Source: Tubiluchus corallicola | Taxonomy: Eukaryota > Priapulida > Priapulimorpha > Priapulimorphida > Tubiluchidae | Length of the DNA stretch: 64,000 nucleotides | Assembly (NCBI GenBank): GCA_030141605.1 | Contig: JAQGDQ010000175.1 | Location: forward strand, 62,001-126,000 | Direction of reading: 5' to 3' | Shown here: positions 13,801 to 62,555 of the stretch, in pieces | Numbering within the stretch: position 1 is the first letter of the stretch | Layout: each line of letters opens with the position of its first letter | Notes under the pieces: generated by a model | Databases searched by the model: none | What the model was told of the DNA's origin: nothing | Seen by the model: only the letters and a program-made list of their open reading frames with translations | Program-made: the position numbers and the translations under genes

Positions 13801-16800
13801 ACTTCCTTCCCGGTCCGTTCTATGGTGATACTTGTCATGGTGTTAAGCAGGGAACTTCCTTCCCAGTCCCGTTGTTATAGTAACTTACTGACATAGGGGT
13901 CATTCGCTCTAACTGATTTAACGGACGCTGCTGACGTAGCTTGCTGCTAGCCAAAATTAGCGCATTGTAAATTGCACAGGTTAGGCTATTAATCAGTCCT
14001 ATTTATTTTGATTATTTTTCTTACAGAATAATCTAACAAATATTTTAAAACGTAAAAAATTAATTCACTTCAGTCCTATTACTGACAAATACTTCTCCTA
14101 TATAGGAAAATTATCTTTGCTAGTTCAGATAAACCTGATATTTCTTTCGTGTTTGTGGTACTAAAAGTTCATTTTTTTAAATTTTTACAGGATGATATAA
14201 TAGCTGCCTACGAAAAAATTATTTTTGAGAGAGTGGAACCACTACTTCCTGAATGGTTCACGAATTTGCCAAAGCAACCTGTTTTGTAAGCATTTTAGAT
14301 ATTTTTTAGAAACAAAGCCCCAGATTCGTTGAGCTATAGTAAATTAATGCCAAGACTCTATGCAATATGTAATCAATTTCAATATCAATATCTATATCAA
14401 TTTATTTTGTGACTACAATAGCTGCTTACAGGAAAATTGCTTTTGATATAGTGGAACCACCAGTGGTTTCCAAATGGTTCGAGAATTTGCCAAAGCCCCA
14501 AAGCAGCCTATTTTTGTAAAAACACAAACTTATTTTTTAGATTTTAGAAGTGAAATAACAATAATGCGTTATTATGGGCTATAACCAATTAATATCACAT
14601 AACAAAATCCCCAATATGAAATTCATTTCTTTCTCTGTCATTTTATTCTGTGATTTTACACTTATTCTAAGTATTGTTTCTAGAGTAAAACCTGCCCCGG
14701 ACACTATGCCAAATGCTCCTACAGGATCCTACATGCCAGGAACAATTGACACACCCGGTATATTTTATGTTAATGTGGCAGATCCAAAATATCAGTAAGT
14801 CAAATACTAAAATATTTAATATGATCGTGTGCTGCTCCATGTTTTTCTGTCAACCAGGGAGTGCGCCATGCCACTGAATGTACTGAAAGCATTTCAGCAC
14901 AGAATGAGTCAGCCAGAAATAGCGAAGCATGTCCGTATCGATTTGTGGCCCACAAAATCATCCAAATGAGATAAAAAGCTTTGTAAGCACAAATAATTTT
15001 CGATGCACTGAAATAACGTTCTATGCAATAAAGCGATGATGAAGTATCACTAGTGTATATGAGAGGTCTTATTATACGTTAATGTTATCTCTTTTAGGCC
15101 CATACCGGAAATGGCTTCTTTGTCTTTACACGAAGCTCAGCCTGGACATCATACTCAGGTATATATAAGATAGGAACAATAAACGTTCCTTGAAATCTAT
15201 GTAGATCTTAGTTTTTTGATGTAAGCATTTTAAAACATATGTACTTGTTGACCAGTGGCATTTTGTAGATAGCCTTGTCAATAGAGAATACGGGAATCCA
15301 CGAATTTCGCAGAAACGATGATACACGCAAGTATGGAGAAGCTCCGACTCATTTTCCAGTCTACGGTGCATACGTTGAGGCAAGCATTCATCTCTTATTA
15401 CTGCAGTTTTCAGCTAAAATAATTTATTTCCTTGAACTGCTTAGAGTGGTCATCTAATTTTCAAGCCAGTTCCCTCCGATTATTGTATTATTATAAAATT
15501 ATTGACTAATTTTATCCAATAAGAATGGTGACTTTCATATCGTCAGTAACGTATAATGCGTAATAAATACGATGAATGTTCGAGCATTTGTGATCCATGT
15601 AATAGTTTTAGTTGAATTCCGATTATGCATAAAATATCTAGAGTGATCGTTTGTTTTCATTATTATTTTTTGGACGTTAGTGTACATTTCTATGCAAATT
15701 CAATCAATGGAAATACTAAAAGCTGTAATATTTTATATATAATGATAATATATGAAATATATATATATATATATATATATATGATAATTTTAGGGATGGG
15801 CGTTATATTCGGAAAAGCTTGGCGAAGAAATGGAGGTTTATAAAAATGAGCTAGAATTGTAAGCAAAAAAGTTATTTATTAACTGCAACTACCAGATATC
15901 AACAAAAATGCAAAGACGTATTCAAGAATTTCGATTTTGAGTAGCAACCAAAACTTAAGCAAACATGGGCTCGGTTGTAAAGTTTCAGATAAAAGAAGTA
16001 CTATATAATTAAGAAAGCAGGCATTCAAATGGTTGCAGAGTTTTTGTGAACTAATTTTAGTGTTACCCATCAACAGCACAATATTGCAGTCTGATCCCAA
16101 CGGAAAATAAAATGTATATTATTATTGTATTCGACAATAATATTTTTTCTTTTTAATTCAAAGATATGGACGATATTTAAAAGAAATGTTACGAGCATGT
16201 CGCCTTGTTGTGGACAGTGGAATGCATGCCCTTGGGTAAGGTATAAATCATTCGTAATTAAAATAACACGATAGAACAGCATTTCACGGGTTTGGAATAA
16301 TCATTGAAAACTGTGCAATAAAAACGATAATTGAACGAAAGCTTTTGCAGCGAGGCGGTACATTAAAAGTGAAAATTGATCACATTGTTGAAATTACTAG
16401 CAATGAACACAAGATCAGTTTAATGATGAAACAATCAGCAATATTAAATTTTTGCTCGAGTTTGGCTTCTCAACATCTATGAATAAGATAAACAACTGCA
16501 GTTTCTTCTTATGTGCATCAATCTCTTCCCGATTGCCACCTATCTATTTGGGTTCTGGATTTATCCGTAACTTTAACCTACCATGCATTGAAGAATCCTA
16601 CAATTTACAACAACCTTGGATAATATTTAATTTTCAAACTCAGCCACACAACCTTTTTTAAATATTTAATTTTCAAACTCAGCCACACAACCTTTTTTAA
16701 AGAGAACAATTGGTTTAGTTATGCACCATGTTAAAGAAAAATCATCGTTCAATAGCACCGAATTTAACAGACGAACTAAAAGCATTGGATAATTCGTGTT

Positions 16801-20435: not shown

Positions 20436-20456
20436 TATGTATATATATATATATAT
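20436..20456. repeat. (AT)n microsatellite
   Basis: Short run of at dinucleotides just before the unpaired counterpart of the copy B palindrome arm (20455-20510). Confidence 0.85.
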
Positions 20457-20544
20457 GGAAACAGTTTAAAGTTAGTAATTATGATTTCTAATTTGTTGAT
20501 ATTTTTTGTAAAAAAATAAAGACAGAATCCAGTGGGATTCGAAA

Positions 20545-21417: not shown

Positions 21418-21556
<139 letters not shown>

Positions 21557-28500: not shown

Positions 28501-31500
28501 AAAATGAGCAGAAATCATTAAAAACGTGTATTTGTAATTGTGAAACATTCACTTTAACTGTCTGCCACTTTCAGCATAAAAACCAGGCATAATTTTGTTT
28601 CAGAAAGGCGTAATTGCTCAGTTCCAGTCTTACCACGTAGAGTTTTCAAATCAATCTATTTTCTACGAGCCATTCAAAAAAATTCCTCCTTCATTTGAAG
28701 ACAGCATCAGGTAAATTACTAGGGCAGTTAATTTTTATCGAAAAAGTGTTGCTGGTGGAAAAAAGGAAAATGATTGTCTCACAGAAAATCCTAATTTTAT
28801 AACTCTGTCCTAGAGAATCTATTCAGTCCTACGAGAGTTTATGTAGAGCTTATCATAGAGTATGAAAAACAATAAGAAATAAACACCGACGAACTGACCG
28901 ACCAAGTCAATCAACCAAATCATTAAGCAATTCAATCAACTGGCTAATTGACAAAATGGTAAGTCAATGTTTATCTTTTCAGAACTGAATTACAGACAAA
29001 GGGGCTCGAGGCCGTAGAAGGCAAAGTCTTGCCTGCTCTAAAGAAGCTCGAAGATTTCATGGAAAATGTACGAAAACTGCGGAAATGCAAGTTTAAAAGG
29101 CGGCCTAATTTACAACTGTTCGAATGTTTAAATAGTCAATAAAATTTTACGATTGACTAAATATGAACTTTACTAATGCTATGCATTGTTGTATAATATA
29201 GCAATATAACAAAGTATTTAATGATATAAAAAATTTACTGAAACTCATATACTGTATTGATTAAATGACTATGACAATGATTCCTTGAGTTGAATGTTAT
29301 CCTTCCTCCGTCAAACTTATTGACGAATAATAACTTTATTCTTATTCTCACTCTGCAGGTTAAGGTTTTATGGTCTCTAAGATATTGTAATTATAGTGGA
29401 TATTAAGTTTACATTTCTGCGCTAATAATTACATCCGTTATGCGTAGGACTACATGAAAAACCTCAGGAAAGACATTGCCATTTCTAGTGTGCCAAAAGG
29501 TCAGGAAATGTACAAGCAACTAATTACGTATTATGCAGGAACGTCAATGACTGCTGAAACAGTGCACGAGATTGGCAACAATGAAGTTAATAGAATATTG
29601 GAAAACATGTTGAAGGTAAATCTTTAGAAATTTCTTTGTAAACTGGAGGGGGAGGGAGATAAAAAGTTGCACAAGTATAGGAAAGTTATCAAAACAGCTA
29701 AAGGACAAACAAAATTTACAGACCAATTTTTTACGTACCAGTCCCAAACCATCTTTAATCGTTCTTTGACTCCCTAGCCATGTCATTCCATTCACAGTTC
29801 GGCTTATTCGGTCTACTGCTGTTACTACTATCATAAATGTAACGACAATACAGGACAAGTGTTGTAGAGTGGCGAACAGTAGGCTAGTGCTATTGCAAAA
29901 AGTGGGGTAACTCCAATAGACAAACTTTTAGGGATAAAAAGTTTTGGGTTGAAACAGCTAGCATTTACCTATTTGAAATGAATGAAATGAACAAAAAATG
30001 GAAAAATGGAATTTATTTTCTGCGGTCTCAGTGTTGCTTTGCTTTTGAAACAATGGTTAATAGTTTTGTTTTAGTTGTGTGTCTTTTTGTTTCCTGGAAC
30101 AGATTGTTGAAAGTCAATGTTTTGCAAACAAATCTGAATTTGATGAATGGCTGGAAACTAACGAAACAAATTTCTACGATAATTCAGTAAGTATTCCATT
30201 ATTAACAGCTTCATCAGAGAAACAAAAGTACTATAATTTCTCTTATGTAACTTGCCGTCACAGCATTTTAGTGAAAAAAAATAATATTTCAATAACAAAT
30301 TCAAACACTTACTAGTCATCATAATGGAATTATACCTTTGCAAATTTTTATTATCATGATTGTACTTTATTTGTTATCTCTTTATTATTCTAGCTAACAA
30401 ATGAAGATATGAAATAAGTGCTTTTTTGTGTAATTCACGCGACGTAATATGATTACCCGAAGTGTGATAGTACATAGGGCATTATACGCATTAATAAGCA
30501 AAAGTTATATATAGCGTTGCACAGTTTTACAAGTGGAAATTTCTCGAAGTGGAACTAGAAGTTGTTTGTCCAGGTGGAGGTAACAAAAAGAAGTGGTAAA
30601 CAGTCCCTCTGAGGCCTTCATTAAGTGGTTCGCGAATGTTTTTTACGTGGTGTTCAGTCGAGTTTTGCGAAAAGAACCGGCGAAAAGATTTCCATTTTGG
30701 CACCTTATACCAGCCTTTCTTCACAAAGTTTATTGGAAATCTGTTAGACAATTTTTGCAAAATAGGCTTATTGCCATAACAGAAAAAACAACCAAACAAA
30801 CAAGCTGTGTTGAAGAATAACTTCCTTTGCAAAGGGTAATAATAACTAAAATAGTTATCTCCCGCTGAAACCCTAACACTAAACACACGTCTTACTAAGT
30901 GTGCAGTTTTTTGTGCCATTTTTACCTACTTTTCCATTTGCGCCATTTTCATGTACTTTTTTTATATACATGCTGTTTTAGAATGTGGAAGCACATAGGT
31001 AATGATGATGCTATAGTAACTTAACTGACCTAGCGGTCATCGACCCAACTGTCGCTGATTACGCACGCCTATTTATTTTTTATTATTTTTCTTATAGAAT
31101 AATTTAATATTTTATTACGTGATTTTGTTTGATAAATTAATTCATTTCAACCCTATTACTGACATTACAAATACTTCTGTCACTTAGGAAAATGACTTTG
31201 TTTCGTAAATTATCTTTGTCAGTACAAATGAGGCTGATATTTCTCTCATGCCTGCGGTGTTTGTAGACTAAGAGTTTATTCTTTTACATGATGATATAAA
31301 TTTCTCCAGGATGATATAATAGCTGCCTACGAGAAAATTGTTTTTGAGGTAGTCGGACCACTGCTTCCTGAATGGTTCAAGAATTTGCCAAAGCAACCTG
31401 TTTTGTAAGCATTTTAGATATTTGTTTATATACAAAGCCCCATATTCGCAGGGCTATAGTAAATTTATACCAACATTTTTTACAATAAGCAATGACTTTT

Positions 31501-34500
31501 TTATATCGGTTTATTTTATAGTTACAATAACTGCGTACAAGAAAATTGCATTTCAGGTAATGGAATCACTGCTTCCTAAATGGTTAAAGAATTTGGCAAA
31601 GCCCCAAAGCAGCGTATTTTTGCTTTGGGGCTTTGCCAAATTCTTTAACCATTTAGGAAGCAGTGATTCCATTACCTGAAATGCAATTTTCTTGTACGCA
31701 GTTATTGTAACTATAAAATAAACCGATATAAAAAAGTCATTGCTTATTGTAAAAAAATAAAAGCATTTTTTAGATATTAGAAATGAAGTAACAATAATAC
31801 GTTTTTATGGGCTTATAACCAATTAATGTTGCATCCCCAATATGAAATTCGTTTCTTTTTCTAGACATTTCTTTGTCAACTTATTCGGCGATTTAATACT
31901 TACTCTAAGTGTCGTTTCTAGAGTAAAACCGGCGCCGGACACTACGCCAAATGCTCCTACAGGATACTACATGCCAGGAACAATTCATACACCCGGAATA
32001 TTTTATGTTAATGTGGCAGATCCAAAATATCAGTAAGTCAAATACTAAAATATTTAATATAATCGTATAGGCCTACTGCTCGTACCAGTCACTGGATAGC
32101 AATTTACATGAGAGAAACAAGTGAATGAGTCAGCCAGAAGTAACCAAGCAGTTGCGTCTTAAAGTCTGGCCCAACAAATCACCCAAATGAGATGTAAAGT
32201 TGTGTAAACACCAATAATTTACACCTCAAGTGCGCTGAAATTCACATTCTATACAACGAAGCGTTGATAATTATCACTAGTGTATATTATTGTATATGAG
32301 AGACATTATTATAATGAGTGTTCTTTGTTTTAGGCCCATACCGGAAATGGCTTCTTTGTCTTTACACGAGGCTCAGCCTGGACATCATACTCAGGTACAT
32401 ATGAGACAACAATATTAAAACTTGAGATCTATGTAGATCTTAGTTTTTTGACGTAAACATTTTAAAGTATATGTACTTGTTGCCCAATGGTATTTTATAG
32501 ATAGCCTTGTCAATAGAGAATACGGGAATCCACGAATTTCGCAGAAACGATGATACACGCAAGTATGGAGAAGCTCCGACTCATTTTCCCGTCTACGGTG
32601 CATACGTTGAGGCAAGCATTCATCTCTTATTACTGCGGTTTTCAGCTAAAATAATTTACTTTCCTGAACTGCTTAGAGTATAAATGAAAATTTTTACGAA
32701 TTTTTCTCTTTGCTGCCCGCCATCCCTGGCCAAGAATACACTTTCTATACTTAAAGAAATGTTTCACTTCGAGCATTCCCGACGCCTCATTGGGCAATTA
32801 ATCAATGCCTCGCAAGTCGTAAATGCCTCGCTACTCGTTTATGAGTAGCACTCACTCACTGGATAAAATGGCCATGTCCAGACTCACTCAGAGTTTGGCG
32901 TGTCATTATGGAAGGAATGTTCAATTGCCGATGGGTTATTAATAAAGCTCAATAGTTGTCACAGGCCTAATTAATAACGTAGTTCCAGCCGATGAATTTT
33001 AGCCAATAAGAAAGCTGAATTTCACGGATACGAGAATAACGTGGATACAACCTGTTAACTTAATATCGTCAATAACAAACATAATAAATACGATGAATGT
33101 TCATACATTAATGATTCATGTAATAGTTTTAGTTGAATTCTGATTATGCACAAAATGTTTTGCTATGAAGTTCTGTCATCAGTTCATTGTTTGCACAAAG
33201 GCAATATACTTGGTTTGCATCAGTGAGCTTTTGTTTTCATTATAAGTTTGTGAACGTTTAGCGTACATTTTTATGCAAATGCAATGAAAACATTTGTTTC
33301 TTGAAACTGTAATCTACATGAAGGATATTTTTAGGGATGGGCGTTATATTCGGAAAAGCTTGGCGAAGAAATGGAGGTTTATAAGAACGAGCTAGAATTG
33401 TAAGCAAAAAAGTTATTTATAAACTACAACTATAGGGTATCAACAAAAATGCAAAGAAGTATTCAAAATTATTGATTTAGCTGAGCAGTTCATGGTATGT
33501 GAATAGCAACCAAAGTTAAGCAAAATTTGGCCTAGTTGGAACGTTTCAGCTAATAGAACCACTGTGTAATTAAGAAAGCAGGCATGCAAAGGGTTGCAGA
33601 TAGTAGGCCCGGCCATACCGTTTGAAAATCTAAATTTAGTTACATGTGGTAACTAGTTACCGTAGGTACATGCTAGTTTGAGCCATTGAAAGCAGTTGAC
33701 CTGACGCGGGTAGTTTAATAAACGTGTCGCTAGTTTTAGTATTATCCCATCAACAGCACAGTATTGCAGGCTGATCCCACAGAAAGTAAAATTTATAATA
33801 TTGCCATATTCGAAAATAATATTTTTCTTTGTAATTCAAAGATATGGACGATATTTAAACGAGATGTTACGAGCATGTCGCCTTGTCGTGGACAGTGGAA
33901 TGCATGCCCTTGGGTAAGGCTTAAATCATTCGTAATTAAATAATGCTATAAAAGAACATTTCACGGGTATGAAATAATCCTTGAAAACTGTACAATAAAA
34001 ATGATAATTATACGAAAGTTCTTGCAGCGATACAATACAGTGCGAGCATTAAAAGTGCATTTTTATCATATTGTTGAATCCTATGAATATTTATCATATG
34101 GCAATGAATGTAAGATCAATTTAATGGTGAAACAATCAGCAACATTAAATTTTTGTTCGAGTTTGTATATATATAAATATGTATTTTTGTAATGTATCCA
34201 TATCATACTATAACCTGCGGGTACCATGTGCGGCTCAATCCCGTAAGCTCACCGTTTGGTCAATAAAGCCAAAGCTCAACGTCTTAATAACGTTCATGTT
34301 CATTTTATTATCAGAGCAGAGTCGTATTAGACTTCTGATTTTTTGTGTAAAAGTCTCTCTGCTAGTTGTAAAAATAGCTATGTCATCCATTAGTAATAAC
34401 CTGTGGAGACCTTGTAAGCTTGGCACCAAGAGATTTTAGTTTAGTTTAAACTTTTTTTATTTAATGTAGATTTACAATATAGACAACTTCTGATAATGGT

Positions 34501-37177: not shown

Positions 37178-38131
37178 CTTACAACCTCGACCTTTTACAG
37201 ACGTGAAAAGCCATTGGACGTGAATAAGGAATAATAAGTTTGGCAGAAGTTAATATTGAAGAATTGCCTGAAAGTCTGCTGTAAAACCTTGCTGGGAGAA
37301 AGCTATAGATTACCTAATTTCCTGAGCCACATCACAATTTTGTTATTATCATAGATCATGCTTTATTTTTAACTTTAAATCAATTTTTTTTGCCTTGTAG
37401 ACGCTCATGTCAACCACGAGGAATTTTATATTTGTTTACAAGTGACTTTAAAATTATGACAAATGTAGGAACAATGTTTATGCGTATCGTGCCCAATAAC
37501 TAGGCCTGGAAAAAACAATACACCTAATACAAGACAATAAAAATGTCTTTTTGCTAACGAGTGCCAATGGTGTACTCAGTCACTAATATAATCAGTGAAC
37601 AGACACGAGAAGTTTACGACAAACTGTATATTTTTCTGTTACTATTATACTATAATACCTATAATGTTATATGTTATAACGTTGCATTGTAAGTACTTTG
37701 TTAAAAAGCTAAAAGTTATAAACTTTAATTATTGTAATTATTGTTGAAATAATGACCTCAGACATAATTAAAACGTACGCACAATTGATTTGCAGTCAAT
37801 GATCATTATGTATCATATACACATTCAATTTCACTCATTTAGTCTCATTAAGACAACTATTCTATATCGACTTCACATTTAATTAAATGTACTAATTTAT
37901 TTAAAAGTACTTGCATAACATGTTCACAATAAAACACTCAGGAAGTTTCGACCTGCTTGAGTTCTTTTTTCAACTGTGGTATCTGGAATGCAATATTATG
38001 TATGCGTTAATTTGCGGTTTCTATACCAGTAGTGTTCATCAGCAAGTTAGTGCAAATTTGGCTCATATACACTAAGATATTGTTTCTACAAATGGTTAAT
38101 ATGTGTATCACAAATTGTTGATATGTGATAT

Positions 38132-38250
38132 AAAAATTATTAACAAATTAGAAATCATAATTACTAACTTTAAACTGTTTCCATATGGAATATATATATG
38201 GAAACAGTTTAAAGTTAGTAATTATGATTTCTAATTTGTTGATAATTTTT
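38132..38250. repeat. 55-bp inverted repeat with a 9-nt spacer (3' flank, copy B)
   Basis: 38132-38186 is complementary to 38196-38250 with a single mismatch (t/c near the outer end). Copy A has only the right arm sequence (about 20455-20510), preceded by an (AT)n run. The left arm is therefore a new inverted copy. Confidence 0.93.
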
Positions 38251-38284
38251 GTATAATTTATAAAGACAGAATCTAGTGGTCAAT

Positions 38285-39478
<1,194 letters not shown>

Positions 39479-51955: not shown

Positions 51956-54823
51956 CTATTCTGACACAGAGTTGGCTGCATCTGTGACGCTGTCAGCTAG
52001 CTCTGCCTGCTTGTTTTGAACTGAAAATTCGTCCTCAGCTGGCAAAGATTTTGCTTCAATGGACACTGTCCTCGGTAAAGGACCCCTCATAACTGGCACA
52101 TCCGTAGGCAAGACATTACCCTGTTCAGATGCTGATAAATTACTTGAAGTGGAGGCAGTAGTTACCTCAATGCTAACAGATCTAGCAGTAGTAGAATGGA
52201 CTCTTCCATATGTCACAACTCCTAGAGTAGAAGTAGTAACTTTCTCTCCTTGTGCATTTTCATCATTAGCATTTATACTGACTTGTATTTCTTGCCCAGA
52301 ATTTGCTGCAGTGCTTCCTCCAGTATCAGAAGCATGAATCTCTTCAATGTCAGCAGCTTGAATTTCTTGAAGAGAATTGCCTGAAGCACATTCTTCAATG
52401 TCAGGAAGTTGCTCTTCTTGCCCAGAATTCGCTTCATTTGTATCAAAATCTTGTCCTCCAGGACTATCGACAAACATTGGCTCTTCAGTGTTAGAATCAT
52501 GAGCTTGGATCTCTTCCATTTTTTCTGAATCTTCTGAGCTAGATTCATATGGGTCACAAGATTCACAAAACCAAGAATAGCCACGAACTTTGGGATTTTT
52601 CTTTAATGGCGGGTTGACACAGCCAAAATGAAATGTCTGGTGACAACCGTCACAACGAATTAGATCAGCATTTGATCCTTCAGCTCCACATTTGTCACAT
52701 TCAACAAGGTTGTCAACTTCCTTTATGTGTCTTTCAGTTCTTCCTCGTTTTTTCAACGTAAAGTCTATTATGAAATCTGAAGACTGCTTTGATTCATCAC
52801 TTCCAGCATCATCTTTGACAAAAATGATATCATCGTGTGGCTTGATCAATTTTTTCTTTGACTTTCTCTGCTTTCCAAGGACAATCTTTTGCTTTTTAAG
52901 CCCTTCGTCTCTAGCTTTATGAGAATAATTAGGCTCAAACTTTTGTGGCTCTTTAATGACCTGGCGCAGCTGTCTTGGTGCATCTATGTCAATCACTTTC
53001 GGAGGAGCATCGTCATCACTGCTAGATGTAGGACAGCAAGACTTGCACTGCCAACCATACAACTTTGATTTCTTGGGCATTCTTGTCAAAGGTGGATCAA
53101 GGCATGCTAAATGGTAATACTTAAGACATGTGTCGCACTGTACTAACTGATGCTGGTCATGTGACGTGTCACAAACTGAACATGTGTGCATTATAACCGG
53201 AAAATGAAAGATTTTCTTGCGTTCTTTCTGTACTGGTATTTGAACAGGCATGAGAACTTCAGGCAGCTCCAAATCTTTTTTAAAGAATTTGCACAGCCAA
53301 GCATGATATTGTTCAGCATCTTGACTAAGTGCAGTGCCATCAGCCTTCAAGTTTTCAAACTCAGACTGCAGTAGGTCATACTGAGAACGAATAGAAGCCT
53401 GTTGACTCTTCAATAATTTGTTCATTTCTATTTGTTTGTCAACACCAGTTTTCATAGCTTTCATTCTTTCAATTCGATCTAAATAATAGCAGATGAATTC
53501 AGTAGTGAAAGCTACAGGGATATGCCACTTCTTTCTAATATCAGCAAGTTCATCTTGAGATCCGTGCCTGGCATGTACCGTATCAGCATTAACCCCAAGT
53601 AGTTCAGCCTTTCTAACAAGCTTGCGACAAGCAGATGGACAAGTGGTAAGCAAGCGTGGCATCTTTTCGGCAGGAACCCCACTAGCCGGCCAATGCGATT
53701 TTTGCTTTAAATATTTATTCTTTGCACGAGTCAATTTTCTTTTAAATCGAAATATCTCTCCTGATGTTTTATTTTCCCACTGATTTTTCTCACTGCTTAA
53801 TTTACATTGAGACTGAAGAGCCAGCCAATTACGTCGCTTGCTAGTTGCTTGCGCTTTATCTGCATGTAATTTACAGTAAGAATAAAATGGGTCAGCTATG
53901 TCCTCAGCTTGCACAGCTTCAGACAGTAATCCATTCTTTTGAGCACAAGTAACGTGGAAATAGTTCTTGCACATTCCTGCGTCACATTTTATACATATGC
54001 CAGTACGACTGAAACGATCATCTTCACATAAGCAACATTCCCTGGCACCCCATTTTGTGTGTGGCAACTCTAACAATGTCACTGGACTGAGCCTATCCAC
54101 ATCACCAAATGCAATTCCTGGTGTATATAGGGCACAAACCAAATGCACCCACTCATCTGTATCAGTTTCTTTCAGAATGCCACCGAAATTCGGGCAAAGT
54201 TCACAGTTGGAACTACTTGCTCCAGCACGGCACGAGTCACAAAACCAAGGTTCAGTAGAGCAAGAAGAAGTAGTACTGGCTTCAGATAACGAATCAGCAA
54301 TGCCATAACATCCCTCATGCACAGACATTCCACAACCATCACATTCAACAATCTCATCGTTTGGTTCACTAATGTCGCCTAAGCACACGCAGCAAATCTT
54401 AACATCAACAGGCTTTTTGAAACCACTATTGGATGCTATACGTACGCGTGCATTCTGTTGTCGCTCCTTCGCTTTCTCTAAGAGCTCATTCAGGGATGCT
54501 GTTTTAGGAACAGATGTAGCAGACTCACTAGTTGCCTCACGATCTCCTTCATCCAAATCCTGAGATGATTCAGATTTTTCTTCACTTGTATCAGATCTAT
54601 TCTCACTTGTTTCCTCTCTGATTTCAAAATCGCTATCATCATCACTATCATCCAAACCTCCAAAATCAAGCTGTAGTAGATGTGCTTCAACTGGCTTCAC
54701 GCGGCGCTTTTTTGGATCTCTAGCATGCATTGCTCGGTACAGGAAGTCAACTTCTTCAGGCACATCTTCAGCAAGATGATCAATTTCTACCACACTACCA
54801 TCACAAGAGTCTTTACTTGACAT
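51956..54823 (-). CDS. PHF14: PHD finger protein 14, single coding exon (955 aa)
   Basis: This is a chromatin reader expected in the nucleus; the vertebrate protein binds histone H3 and regulates transcription. An acidic Ser/Asp-rich N terminus (about 55-105) comes first. A first PHD finger follows (143-200, KICCVCLGD...EPWFCDSC), then an extended zinc-knuckle/PHD module (207-322, CELCPNFGGILKETD...SYCKLH). A helical, probably coiled-coil stretch lies at about 440-500. The last two PHD fingers are at about 548-596 (CSVCDTSHDQHQLVQCDTC...HLACLDPPLTRMP) and 709-756 (CDKCGAEG...FHFGCVNPPLKKNP). The order matches PHF14. The frame stays open 25 codons further upstream, but those bases look like an intron ending in ttctttgcag directly before gcATG, so I start at 54823. 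One uninterrupted coding exon is unusual, since vertebrate PHF14 has many exons. Either lineage-specific intron loss or a retained retrocopy could explain it. Confidence 0.95.
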   Translation of the reverse strand: MSSKDSCDGSVVEIDHLAEDVPEEVDFLYRAMHARDPKKRRVKPVEAHLLQLDFGGLDDSDDDSDFEIREETSENRSDTSEEKSESSQDLDEGDREATSESATSVPKTASLNELLEKAKERQQNARVRIASNSGFKKPVDVKICCVCLGDISEPNDEIVECDGCGMSVHEGCYGIADSLSEASTTSSCSTEPWFCDSCRAGASSSNCELCPNFGGILKETDTDEWVHLVCALYTPGIAFGDVDRLSPVTLLELPHTKWGARECCLCEDDRFSRTGICIKCDAGMCKNYFHVTCAQKNGLLSEAVQAEDIADPFYSYCKLHADKAQATSKRRNWLALQSQCKLSSEKNQWENKTSGEIFRFKRKLTRAKNKYLKQKSHWPASGVPAEKMPRLLTTCPSACRKLVRKAELLGVNADTVHARHGSQDELADIRKKWHIPVAFTTEFICYYLDRIERMKAMKTGVDKQIEMNKLLKSQQASIRSQYDLLQSEFENLKADGTALSQDAEQYHAWLCKFFKKDLELPEVLMPVQIPVQKERKKIFHFPVIMHTCSVCDTSHDQHQLVQCDTCLKYYHLACLDPPLTRMPKKSKLYGWQCKSCCPTSSSDDDAPPKVIDIDAPRQLRQVIKEPQKFEPNYSHKARDEGLKKQKIVLGKQRKSKKKLIKPHDDIIFVKDDAGSDESKQSSDFIIDFTLKKRGRTERHIKEVDNLVECDKCGAEGSNADLIRCDGCHQTFHFGCVNPPLKKNPKVRGYSWFCESCDPYESSSEDSEKMEEIQAHDSNTEEPMFVDSPGGQDFDTNEANSGQEEQLPDIEECASGNSLQEIQAADIEEIHASDTGGSTAANSGQEIQVSINANDENAQGEKVTTSTLGVVTYGRVHSTTARSVSIEVTTASTSSNLSASEQGNVLPTDVPVMRGPLPRTVSIEAKSLPAEDEFSVQNKQAELADSVTDAANSVSE

Positions 54824-55990
54824 GCCTGCAAAGAACTGAAACAAAAATACTGAATTATTTTGACTGCAGTGATTGATTCTCATTTCATGCTCTTTCACAT
54901 TAATAATTACAAAGAGAAGTAAACCAAGCTATGAAGGTTGCATAATTCTAGTTCAACATATAGACTTGTAGATGGTAGCGCAAGTCCGCATGGTACCGCA
55001 CAAACATTCACTGGAATTATCGAAAACTCGGCTCAATTCAGAATGAATTTTAATATCCTAGCTTTATGTTAATGACCAAAAACAAGTCATATGCAGACAA
55101 TTTTTTTCAAAATTGAACCCTTGTAAAACAACTACTTATACACTTATATGGTATATTGATCCATGTACATTACTTCGTAATTAAAATACTGAAACGTGGT
55201 GAAATATAAACATATTTTAAAGCACGCTTAATGCACAGAAAACTCAAGATACACTGCAATACATCCTACACTAACAAAAAACCCTAGTCCTTCACCCATG
55301 CATGCAAACTGGCAACTAGTAATACGAAATTTAAATTCACTTAGTTCCCTTATCTATGCTGGAATAACTGTAGACAACCGACATTGCTAGCACGTGTGCA
55401 AAAATCATTGTTATTTTGAATTTATTGTCTACTACTTTCTTCTTTTAGGTGGAGTAATTTGAGTAACTGACATGGCCACAAAACAACCACGAAAAATTTT
55501 TCAGCACAACTTGCCAACATATAACGTATAGACAAGCAAAGTAAAGTTTCGACAATTTTAAAAAATCGTCATATTGCATTTTCACTTTTATTTCGTGGTG
55601 AGACAATGCGACTAAAATAAATTACTGAAAGTTTTTTGTGCACAAAACATATTTAGAAAAAGTCATAGAAAAGGTTTACTAGGATGCGTATGGTAAAAGG
55701 GTAAAATGCAAAAGACCGGTCTGGGGGTAATTTTTTACCTCCCGATGACCCTATAAAGGCTAAAATTGTGTGGCACTAACTGATGCAATACCAGAAAATT
55801 CAGCCCTGCATTACAGGATTTATGCAAGGTGACACAAATAATCTGTAATATAACAAAAGTAGAACTGTAATGACCAGGTTCAATGTAAGTTTAGCCTTAG
55901 TTATTTAATTTGCCTAGCATATAAAGAAGAATGAAATGCAATATCAACTTGCATCACTTAAGACATTATTATTACTACTATACTAGTAGT
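54824..55990. other. PHF14 upstream region
   Basis: A probable leader-intron acceptor (minus strand, ending at about 54826) means a non-coding first exon lies further upstream; I cannot place it. The rest is AT-rich without a recognised gene. Confidence 0.4.
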
Positions 55991-60930: not shown

Positions 60931-62555
60931 AAGCCTAGACATAATCTTTCGCCAGAGGATAACAAAAACAACAAGTAACAGTACTGAACAATTCATTACA
61001 TCAAAGGGTTGGTGTATCAATAGAGGCACTGTCATGTCCTCATTGTCTCTCACAAGTCACAGCTGGCCTGCAATTTTGAGGGGTATCAGTATGAGTATCA
61101 GCAAGAAGATTTAACAAAATGCCCAAAAATTCACTGGAGCTCAACCAAAAGAACCACACCCTGAATGAACGAGCTATGGCGAAGTTTTTGCAAATCTTGC
61201 TGAAGTGCAGTTTTCACACCTGTGTGGGGTTGTGGGCATAGTATAATACAACGCTATAACAGTGAAAAAACTACAAAAATTTGCAATGATAATTTGAATA
61301 GTGTGAACTATTCCCAGATGCAAAGCCTTAATATATTCGTATCTAGTGCACAGTATAATAATTCGAGAAAGCTACAATTTGCTATTTACAACTTCCATTT
61401 TAATAATGGTCCGTTTATACTGAGAGTTTTCTTCTCTAAGTAGAATTGCTTTTTGTGGTTTCAAGTTGCATCATCTATAGAAAATAATTATGGTTTCTCT
61501 GTAGACACCCAATCGCAAGTGGGCTTTGGTGCATCGCGAACAAAGTCTTGCTGCAGCAGAATCAAAGTCTGTACACACGTCCTTACTAAGTGTACAATGG
61601 CTGATAAAGTGGAAACAATTATACAATTATATATACCCGAATCTCACTCAGAATAAATCCATAGGCAAGCCCTGACTGTTGTTCTTTATTGTACAGTAAT
61701 AATGTAACACCTAATTAACAATGATTGTGAATGCTATTTCTGGATAGGATTGCCCTATTCAGCTAAGTATAAAACAGCATCTCGTTGTGTTCGGTAACTG
61801 GAATTTTCAATTAGGGTAGGTTCTCGCTGTTATTTCAAATACTTCAAATGGACTAGTGCAAAAACAAATAAACAAAAACAAAAATGGTGAATGTTTTAGA
61901 AAGTATAACTAGGCTACCAAATTGTGGCTGGCCGATTGAGGAAGGAAAGAAATATAGGCATTGAAAAAAAAGGTGGCAACAGTGTTGCATAAAATGAAAA
62001 AACGTGAAACAAGAATACATGAAAAAAATGCGTGAATGAAAAAGTCTAAATATTTGTAGCTATCATCAAACAGGCCAATTGTTATAAATGATTGGGTTTC
62101 CTAATAGCAAATGTAGTGTTGAAAACGAACAAATTAGCAATGTGAAAACATTCTGCGTTATTGTCTACTGTGCAAACGGTTAACTCCCAGTACCACTCAC
62201 CCCCAGCTCGGTAGCCATGACTATTCGTATATGATCTATTTGTTCTTGTGCAAACTTGTGCATTTTCTATTATTATTATTGATAGCCTCAGCATAGACAC
62301 AGATTATTAATGTACAAGAAATCGTCTTATAACATCATTAAAGACAATTTAAACAATACGTTATGTAATGTCTTAAAATTTTTATTCCACATATTATAAA
62401 ACTATCAATACTGCATATATTAACGATATTCTGAATTTTGTAATTATCAGTTTGGAGGTTCGGGGATGGAAAATTGGAGATAGCACGTGTCACTACGAAT
62501 AAGCTGCCTAAAGTAACAACATAATGTGTAATGAAGACCACACCCTGTCACAAGT
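60931..62555. other. Intergenic stretch, nothing recognised
   Basis: AT-rich, with short open frames only. None has splice sites or a recognisable family signature. Confidence 0.5.

Follow-up and report, generated by a model that had tools for sequence, protein, structure and literature searches.

A perfect 136-bp hairpin in intron 9 of a tandemly duplicated DUF885 gene of Tubiluchus corallicola, very probably the product of one short-range template switch

The subject of this report is a long perfect inverted repeat that lies in an intron of one member of a tandem gene pair of the priapulid Tubiluchus corallicola; the sequence analysed, called the window below, is the whole stretch of 64,000 nt from position 62,001 to position 126,000 of contig JAQGDQ010000175.1 (assembly GCA_030141605.1), a contig that stems from a 343.5-Mb genome in 2344 contigs. 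The two gene copies, A (approx. 7.8-19.2 kb) and B (approx. 22.5-37.2 kb), have 17 coding blocks in common by hand count, and the number 9 given here to exons and introns rests on that hand-made count. The hand-joined protein of copy B (619 amino acids) matches DUF885 (PF05960) over profile positions 1-530 of 532 with E=1.9e-132. When the genome was searched with this profile, 14 candidates were scored and four matches were obtained, all within copies A and B; thus, a third DUF885 paralogue that could act as an outgroup was not found by the profile search, although an exon-by-exon search of this kind can miss diverged copies. Exon 9 is 95 nt long in both copies and is encoded on the plus strand (31310-31404 in copy B and its counterpart, 14191-14285, in copy A); in copy B, where it is the parent of a relic described below, it lies inside the DUF885 match, is flanked by CAG and GTAA, and reads DDIIAAYEKIVFEVVGPLLPEWFKNLPKQPVL. 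The intron that follows measures 517 nt in copy B (31405-31921, plus strand) and 398 nt in copy A, with the ends GTAAGC...TTCTAG in both.

A preliminary description had reported two exact 136-bp inverted arms with a 9-nt turn in intron 9 of copy B, and the structure is present there exactly as reported. The first arm (31476-31611, plus strand) and the second arm (31621-31756, minus strand) are 136 nt each and 100% complementary, the second being the exact reverse complement of the first, and they are separated by the spacer GCGTATTTT (31612-31620, plus strand). With a seed of 20 and a minimum length of 40, four inverted pairs were listed for the window, of which this one is the longest; it lies far beyond chance, since in ten first-order Markov simulations of the window, with loops of up to 60, the longest exact arms were of 10-13 nt. 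Folded as RNA, the segment 31446-31786 forms one long hairpin of -233.9 kcal/mol, whereas 100 shuffled versions average -62.25.

The first arm is ancestral and aligns to copy A. It opens with approx. 47 nt of mostly intron sequence and continues with a relic of exon 9, the best match being between 31523-31602 (arm positions 48-127) and 31315-31394 of the exon, at 82.5%. The arm had been described as the relic of a duplicated exon 9 that copy A carries once. The relic is indeed there, but it accounts for only approx. 80 of the 136 arm bases, the rest of the arm being mostly flanking intron; its counterpart in copy A was found by alignment at 14393-14505 (plus strand), single and not inverted, with 78.8% identity to arm positions 27-136. 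Compared with exon 9, both relics have lost 1 nt and gained 8 nt, and because they have these indels in common, the relic exon was probably already dead when the gene was duplicated. The ratio of nonsynonymous to synonymous substitution rates (dN/dS) is 1.35 between the relics of A and B (33 codons; 3 synonymous and 15 other differences) versus 0.43 between the two exons 9 (31 codons; 3 synonymous and 5 other differences), which, within the limits of such small numbers, fits a dead exon. Weak counter-evidence comes from the exon-register frame, which is still open in both relics (14409-14516 and 31518-31622) despite the indels at their ends. There is no AG in the copy A relic where the exon acceptor would sit; the copy B relic has one at this place (TTTATAG followed by TTACAATAA), and, by our own reading, the exon phase would reach a stop there at the third codon. 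On account of the common indels, the missing acceptor AG in A, the early stop in B, and the dN/dS values, a still-used alternative exon was considered and rejected.

Aligned with copy A, copy B contains a net insertion of 127 nt at 31623-31749, which slides left by a 3-nt repeat, TTG; a second alignment sets the same gap three bases leftward, at 31620-31746, as the TTG repeat at the ends allows. Read in reverse complement, the insert is identical to the adjoining sequence. It sits inside ancestral sequence, between TATTTTTG and TAAAAA, with no bases lost at either end relative to A and with both flanks in register; the loop is likewise ancestral (its equivalent in A is GCCTATTTT), and in the second arm, the outermost 2+7 nt have an aligned counterpart in A, with one mismatch. 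A template switch predicts the reverse complement of nearby sequence, which is what is found, and exactly so; it also predicts one event with a return to the original template, as is seen here with the ancestor represented by the paralogue only. Microhomology at the switch points, which is common and is not required by a mechanism-agnostic model, is limited at the start of the insert to TG, able to pair with CA on the other side of the 9-nt loop (a 2-bp match), and at the return switch point consists of TTGTAAAAA (31747-31755, plus strand), present in the last part of the copied arm and likewise at the original site (TTTTTGTAAAAAC in A). In A, the relic has the old donor GTAAAA, which the insertion disrupts in B; a GTAAAA now stands where the second arm ends, a change that could matter only if the relic were spliced.

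Copy A has no second arm. In copy B, the sequence that follows the donor of exon 9, AAGCA-TTTTAGATA, recurs right after the second arm, with a score that was matched in 9 of 2000 shuffles for the flank of exon A and in 56 of 2000 for that of exon B; the start of the second arm, tested likewise, gave no match (419/2000 and 1473/2000 shuffles). Because the post-donor sequence recurs at this point, the second arm appears to have entered an older exon-to-intron junction, which would lend modest support to the B state as the derived one. The arms differ at 0 of 136 positions, while a comparison of intron 9 of A with that of B, the insert set aside, gives 64 differences over 376 aligned sites (K=0.19), and three further A/B blocks, exons included, give K values from 0.13 to 0.19. 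If the arms were as old as the gene duplication and changed at equal rates, they would differ at about 18-26 sites. This disparity between identical arms and a diverged intron argues for a young event, which, without gene conversion, would date from roughly the final 11-17% of the period since duplication (11% being the 95% bound at K=0.19 and 17% the value at the lowest K). The data therefore favour the earlier proposals that the inverted second arm was most likely gained after the gene duplication, given the single relic and the lack of a second arm in A, and that perfect identity marks a repeat that is either very young or kept uniform by conversion.

Copies A and B were also compared along their length in one global alignment, which contains 200 indels, 76 of them of 12-600 nt; some of these are poorly placed, since only 73% of the aligned columns (9406/12806) are identical. 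When the 76 indels were scanned for templates within 250 nt on either side (cut-off score 14), two proved to be templated by reverse complement, both of them in B: 31623-31749 and 38109-38187. The latter creates a second, smaller foldback palindrome (38128-38254) 3' of the last coding block of copy B, with a 9-nt loop and arms of 59 nt at 97% or 69 nt at 91%; copy A holds a single arm of it near 20447-20535. At the left edge of this palindrome lies a tandem repeat with a 22-nt period (38090-38143), which suggests that the switch returned upstream of its departure point. A further scan covered 200 kb with a total of 15,265 N, drawn from eight places on the same contig and from the initial 10 kb of each of 12 others, which were selected by their number; it found arms of 56 nt (98%), 44 nt (100%), and 38 nt (89%), together with one 64-nt low-complexity AT repeat. 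The 56-nt arms lie on the same contig as the window (piece L004:1532-1644) and have a 1-nt loop; the 44-nt arms (piece L021:3081-3173) have a 5-nt loop. Since several such repeats turned up in the sampled pieces, near-perfect short-loop repeats recur in this genome, and the 136-nt arm is the longest within the 264 kb scanned.

The hairpin thus very probably arose in the germ line through one template switch over a short range (a foldback mutation). While DNA was being replicated or a break repaired, a strand with ...TATTTTTG at its end would have folded back with a 9-nt loop, held by the 2-bp TG/CA match, made a reverse-complement copy of approx. 127-134 nt of its surroundings, and then annealed again, through TTGTAAAAA, at its point of departure. 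As the ancestor would already have held a dead tandem copy of exon 9, the copied stretch was mostly relic. The inverted copy, the clean insertion relative to A, the matches at the junctions, and the absence of divergence between the arms are seen directly in the sequence; we infer that B is derived, that the enzymatic route led through a fork or through break repair, and that the outcome is probably neutral intron sequence. A template switch fits the pattern, and so, equally well, does foldback priming at a broken end with subsequent end joining; the sequence cannot separate them. Several points speak against this interpretation. Priming of the first switch relies on a match of no more than 2 bp, and the length is at the extreme of the set of template switches described in great apes. 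Polarity was judged from copy A and the exon itself rather than from an outgroup species, and the post-donor argument is modest because the post-relic sequence of copy A, subjected to the same test, gave no significant result (277/2000 and 994/2000 shuffles). It should also be noted that later correction of the arms, by gene conversion or further template switching, could have taken place and would void the age bound.

A different account would be that the palindrome is an assembly or library artefact, i.e., a snap-back chimera of one read or clone that was built into the contig. Short-loop foldback chimeras are a known product of library construction, and two of the 20 sampled 10-kb pieces contain more than 7 kb of N each. 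This account is nonetheless unlikely: the right flank is regained through a common 9-mer, without loss and in register with A, which would be unexpected for a plain foldback read, and both the second foldback, whose diverged arms lie 3' of the same gene copy and speak for a natural process, and the other near-perfect short-loop repeats in the sampled pieces tell against it. It is still more doubtful that the palindrome predates the gene duplication, in which case copy A would have lost its second arm precisely and gene conversion would have kept the arms of copy B identical. Small inverted triplications are reported to be lost from plasmids in E. coli and yeast, which restores the original sequence (PMC13334657), and the TTG repeat stands at both sides of the insert; however, the 18-26 arm differences expected of such an old structure are absent, and two special events would be required instead of one. 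Least credible of all is a foldback or MITE-type (miniature inverted-repeat) transposable element, which has little more to commend it than the presence of inverted repeats in an intron. All three matches obtained when the genome was searched at the DNA level with the arm belong to this pair of genes; TTG is the only direct repeat that borders 31623-31749, and copy A shares the first arm as ancestral sequence. As neither dispersed copies nor a target-site duplication were found, a transposable element was rejected.

Whether the transcript of such a hairpin might act as an RNA deserves separate consideration. In this scenario, intronic double-stranded RNA would be diced or edited and would act back on exon 9 of the gene family, so that a late template switch would have turned a dead exon into a newborn self-targeting hairpin, a diced 136-bp double-stranded RNA that dampens its parent gene family. 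If true, this would show a dead exon becoming an RNA-interference locus in one step, while its ancestor still lies alongside. The predicted fold is very stable, at the -233.9 kcal/mol given above, and exons for Dicer-dimer and A_deamin domains are present in the genome: the Dicer-dimer profile gave two matches at one locus, one of them with a stop inside the matched stretch, and the A_deamin profile gave eight matches on three contigs, this domain not being specific to ADAR. These matches point to genes for proteins that could encounter double-stranded RNA, but they are no evidence that this hairpin is used. Furthermore, fly hairpin RNAs are proposed typically to come from their targets (PMC10317233). 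The hairpin had been thought to be complementary in part to exon 9, which is true of approx. 80 of the 136 bases, but the complementarity is imperfect, with a longest exact run of 11 nt in B and no run of at least 9 nt in A. Among the 116 windows of 21 nt in the arm, the best have 2 mismatches to exon 9 of B (14 windows) and 3 to exon 9 of A (14 windows), and only the unspliced relic in the intron of A is reached with 1 mismatch (4 windows). The three genome matches of the arm all lie at the gene pair, in a DNA search that skips common words and would miss short targets, and the hairpin is too young for conservation to show. A working hairpin RNA is very improbable, and equally so the dampening of the parent genes by a diced dead exon; the earlier suggestion that the transcript could feed Dicer or A-to-I editing, or pause splicing, gains no support from the present data.

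As regards the surroundings, ATA trinucleotide arrays lie 3' of each gene copy, at 21420-21556 (46 units) and 38902-39139 (80 units); perhaps they were duplicated along with the gene and changed in length afterwards. Farther away, on the minus strand, an intronless open frame of 990 codons (51956-54928) encodes PHD-finger domains, with PF00628 in three stretches (E=4.3e-25) and PF13832 (E=9.9e-26). Its product presumably resembles PHF14, and the frame is either one large exon or a retrogene. Searches of the window gave no Rfam match at gathering scores and, with ARAGORN, no tRNA.

With an unaltered copy of the gene next to it, the hairpin offers a well-resolved, probable case of the one-step birth of a long perfect hairpin inside a gene, for which both switch points, the size, and a relative age can be given. 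If it is polymorphic, it would be a convenient natural setting in which to see what a hairpin of such youth and length does, as part of an intron, to splicing, editing, or small RNAs.

A microRNA precursor needs a far shorter stem than 136 bp, and a 2023 paper in PNAS reportedly traced new microRNAs to template switching. RNA stems can originate from template switching, for which human microRNA loci provide examples, and the process has been proposed as a source of new hairpin RNAs (PMC8794818). The present case resembles these in that a perfect stem arose from one mutation in a region that is likely transcribed; it differs in that the hairpin is known from DNA sequence alone and in that its stem is far beyond the length of a microRNA precursor. 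Target-derived hairpin RNAs (PMC10317233) are similar in that an inverted piece of a gene resembles an exon of that gene, whereas here the piece is intronic and its arm is a diverged relic. Inverted duplication is also a model for the origin of plant microRNA genes (PMC3237417). In eukaryotes, perfect inverted repeats with spacers of up to 8 bp are denser in introns than in exons (PMC13155455), and the 9-nt loop places the present repeat just outside that class.

Mutations of this class are already on record from apes and yeast. Great-ape template switches, analysed under a four-point model, have a median length of 12 nt and a maximum of 128 nt (Walker et al. 2021, PMC7954356). In both cases, the adjoining reverse complement is inserted in one event to give a perfect hairpin; however, the net length here is 127 nt, at the edge of the published range given that maximum and far above the median, and polarity comes from a paralogue instead of a species tree. 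In yeast, foldback insertions at one break range from 10 to more than 150 bp, most being of approx. 5-34 bp (PMC11724301). Foldback priming, a short loop, and microhomology at the second junction are common to these insertions and the present one, but the local yeast insertions used an imperfect repeat of 10 bp for priming and had a loop of 41 nt, compared with 2 bp and a 9-nt loop here. Small inverted triplications, which are attributed to replication error, contain inverted fragments of similar size (median 160 bp; median spacer 30 bp; PMC13334657). In contrast to these, the insert shows no duplication-inversion-duplication (DUP/INV/DUP) architecture, with no flanking direct duplication beyond the 3-nt TTG at its ends, and its loop is 9 nt versus the median of 30 bp. 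Because the published template-switch and foldback cases resemble it, the locus can be regarded as a new and well-resolved member of a known mutation class, and the mutation, though rather long, looks like one of an ordinary kind.

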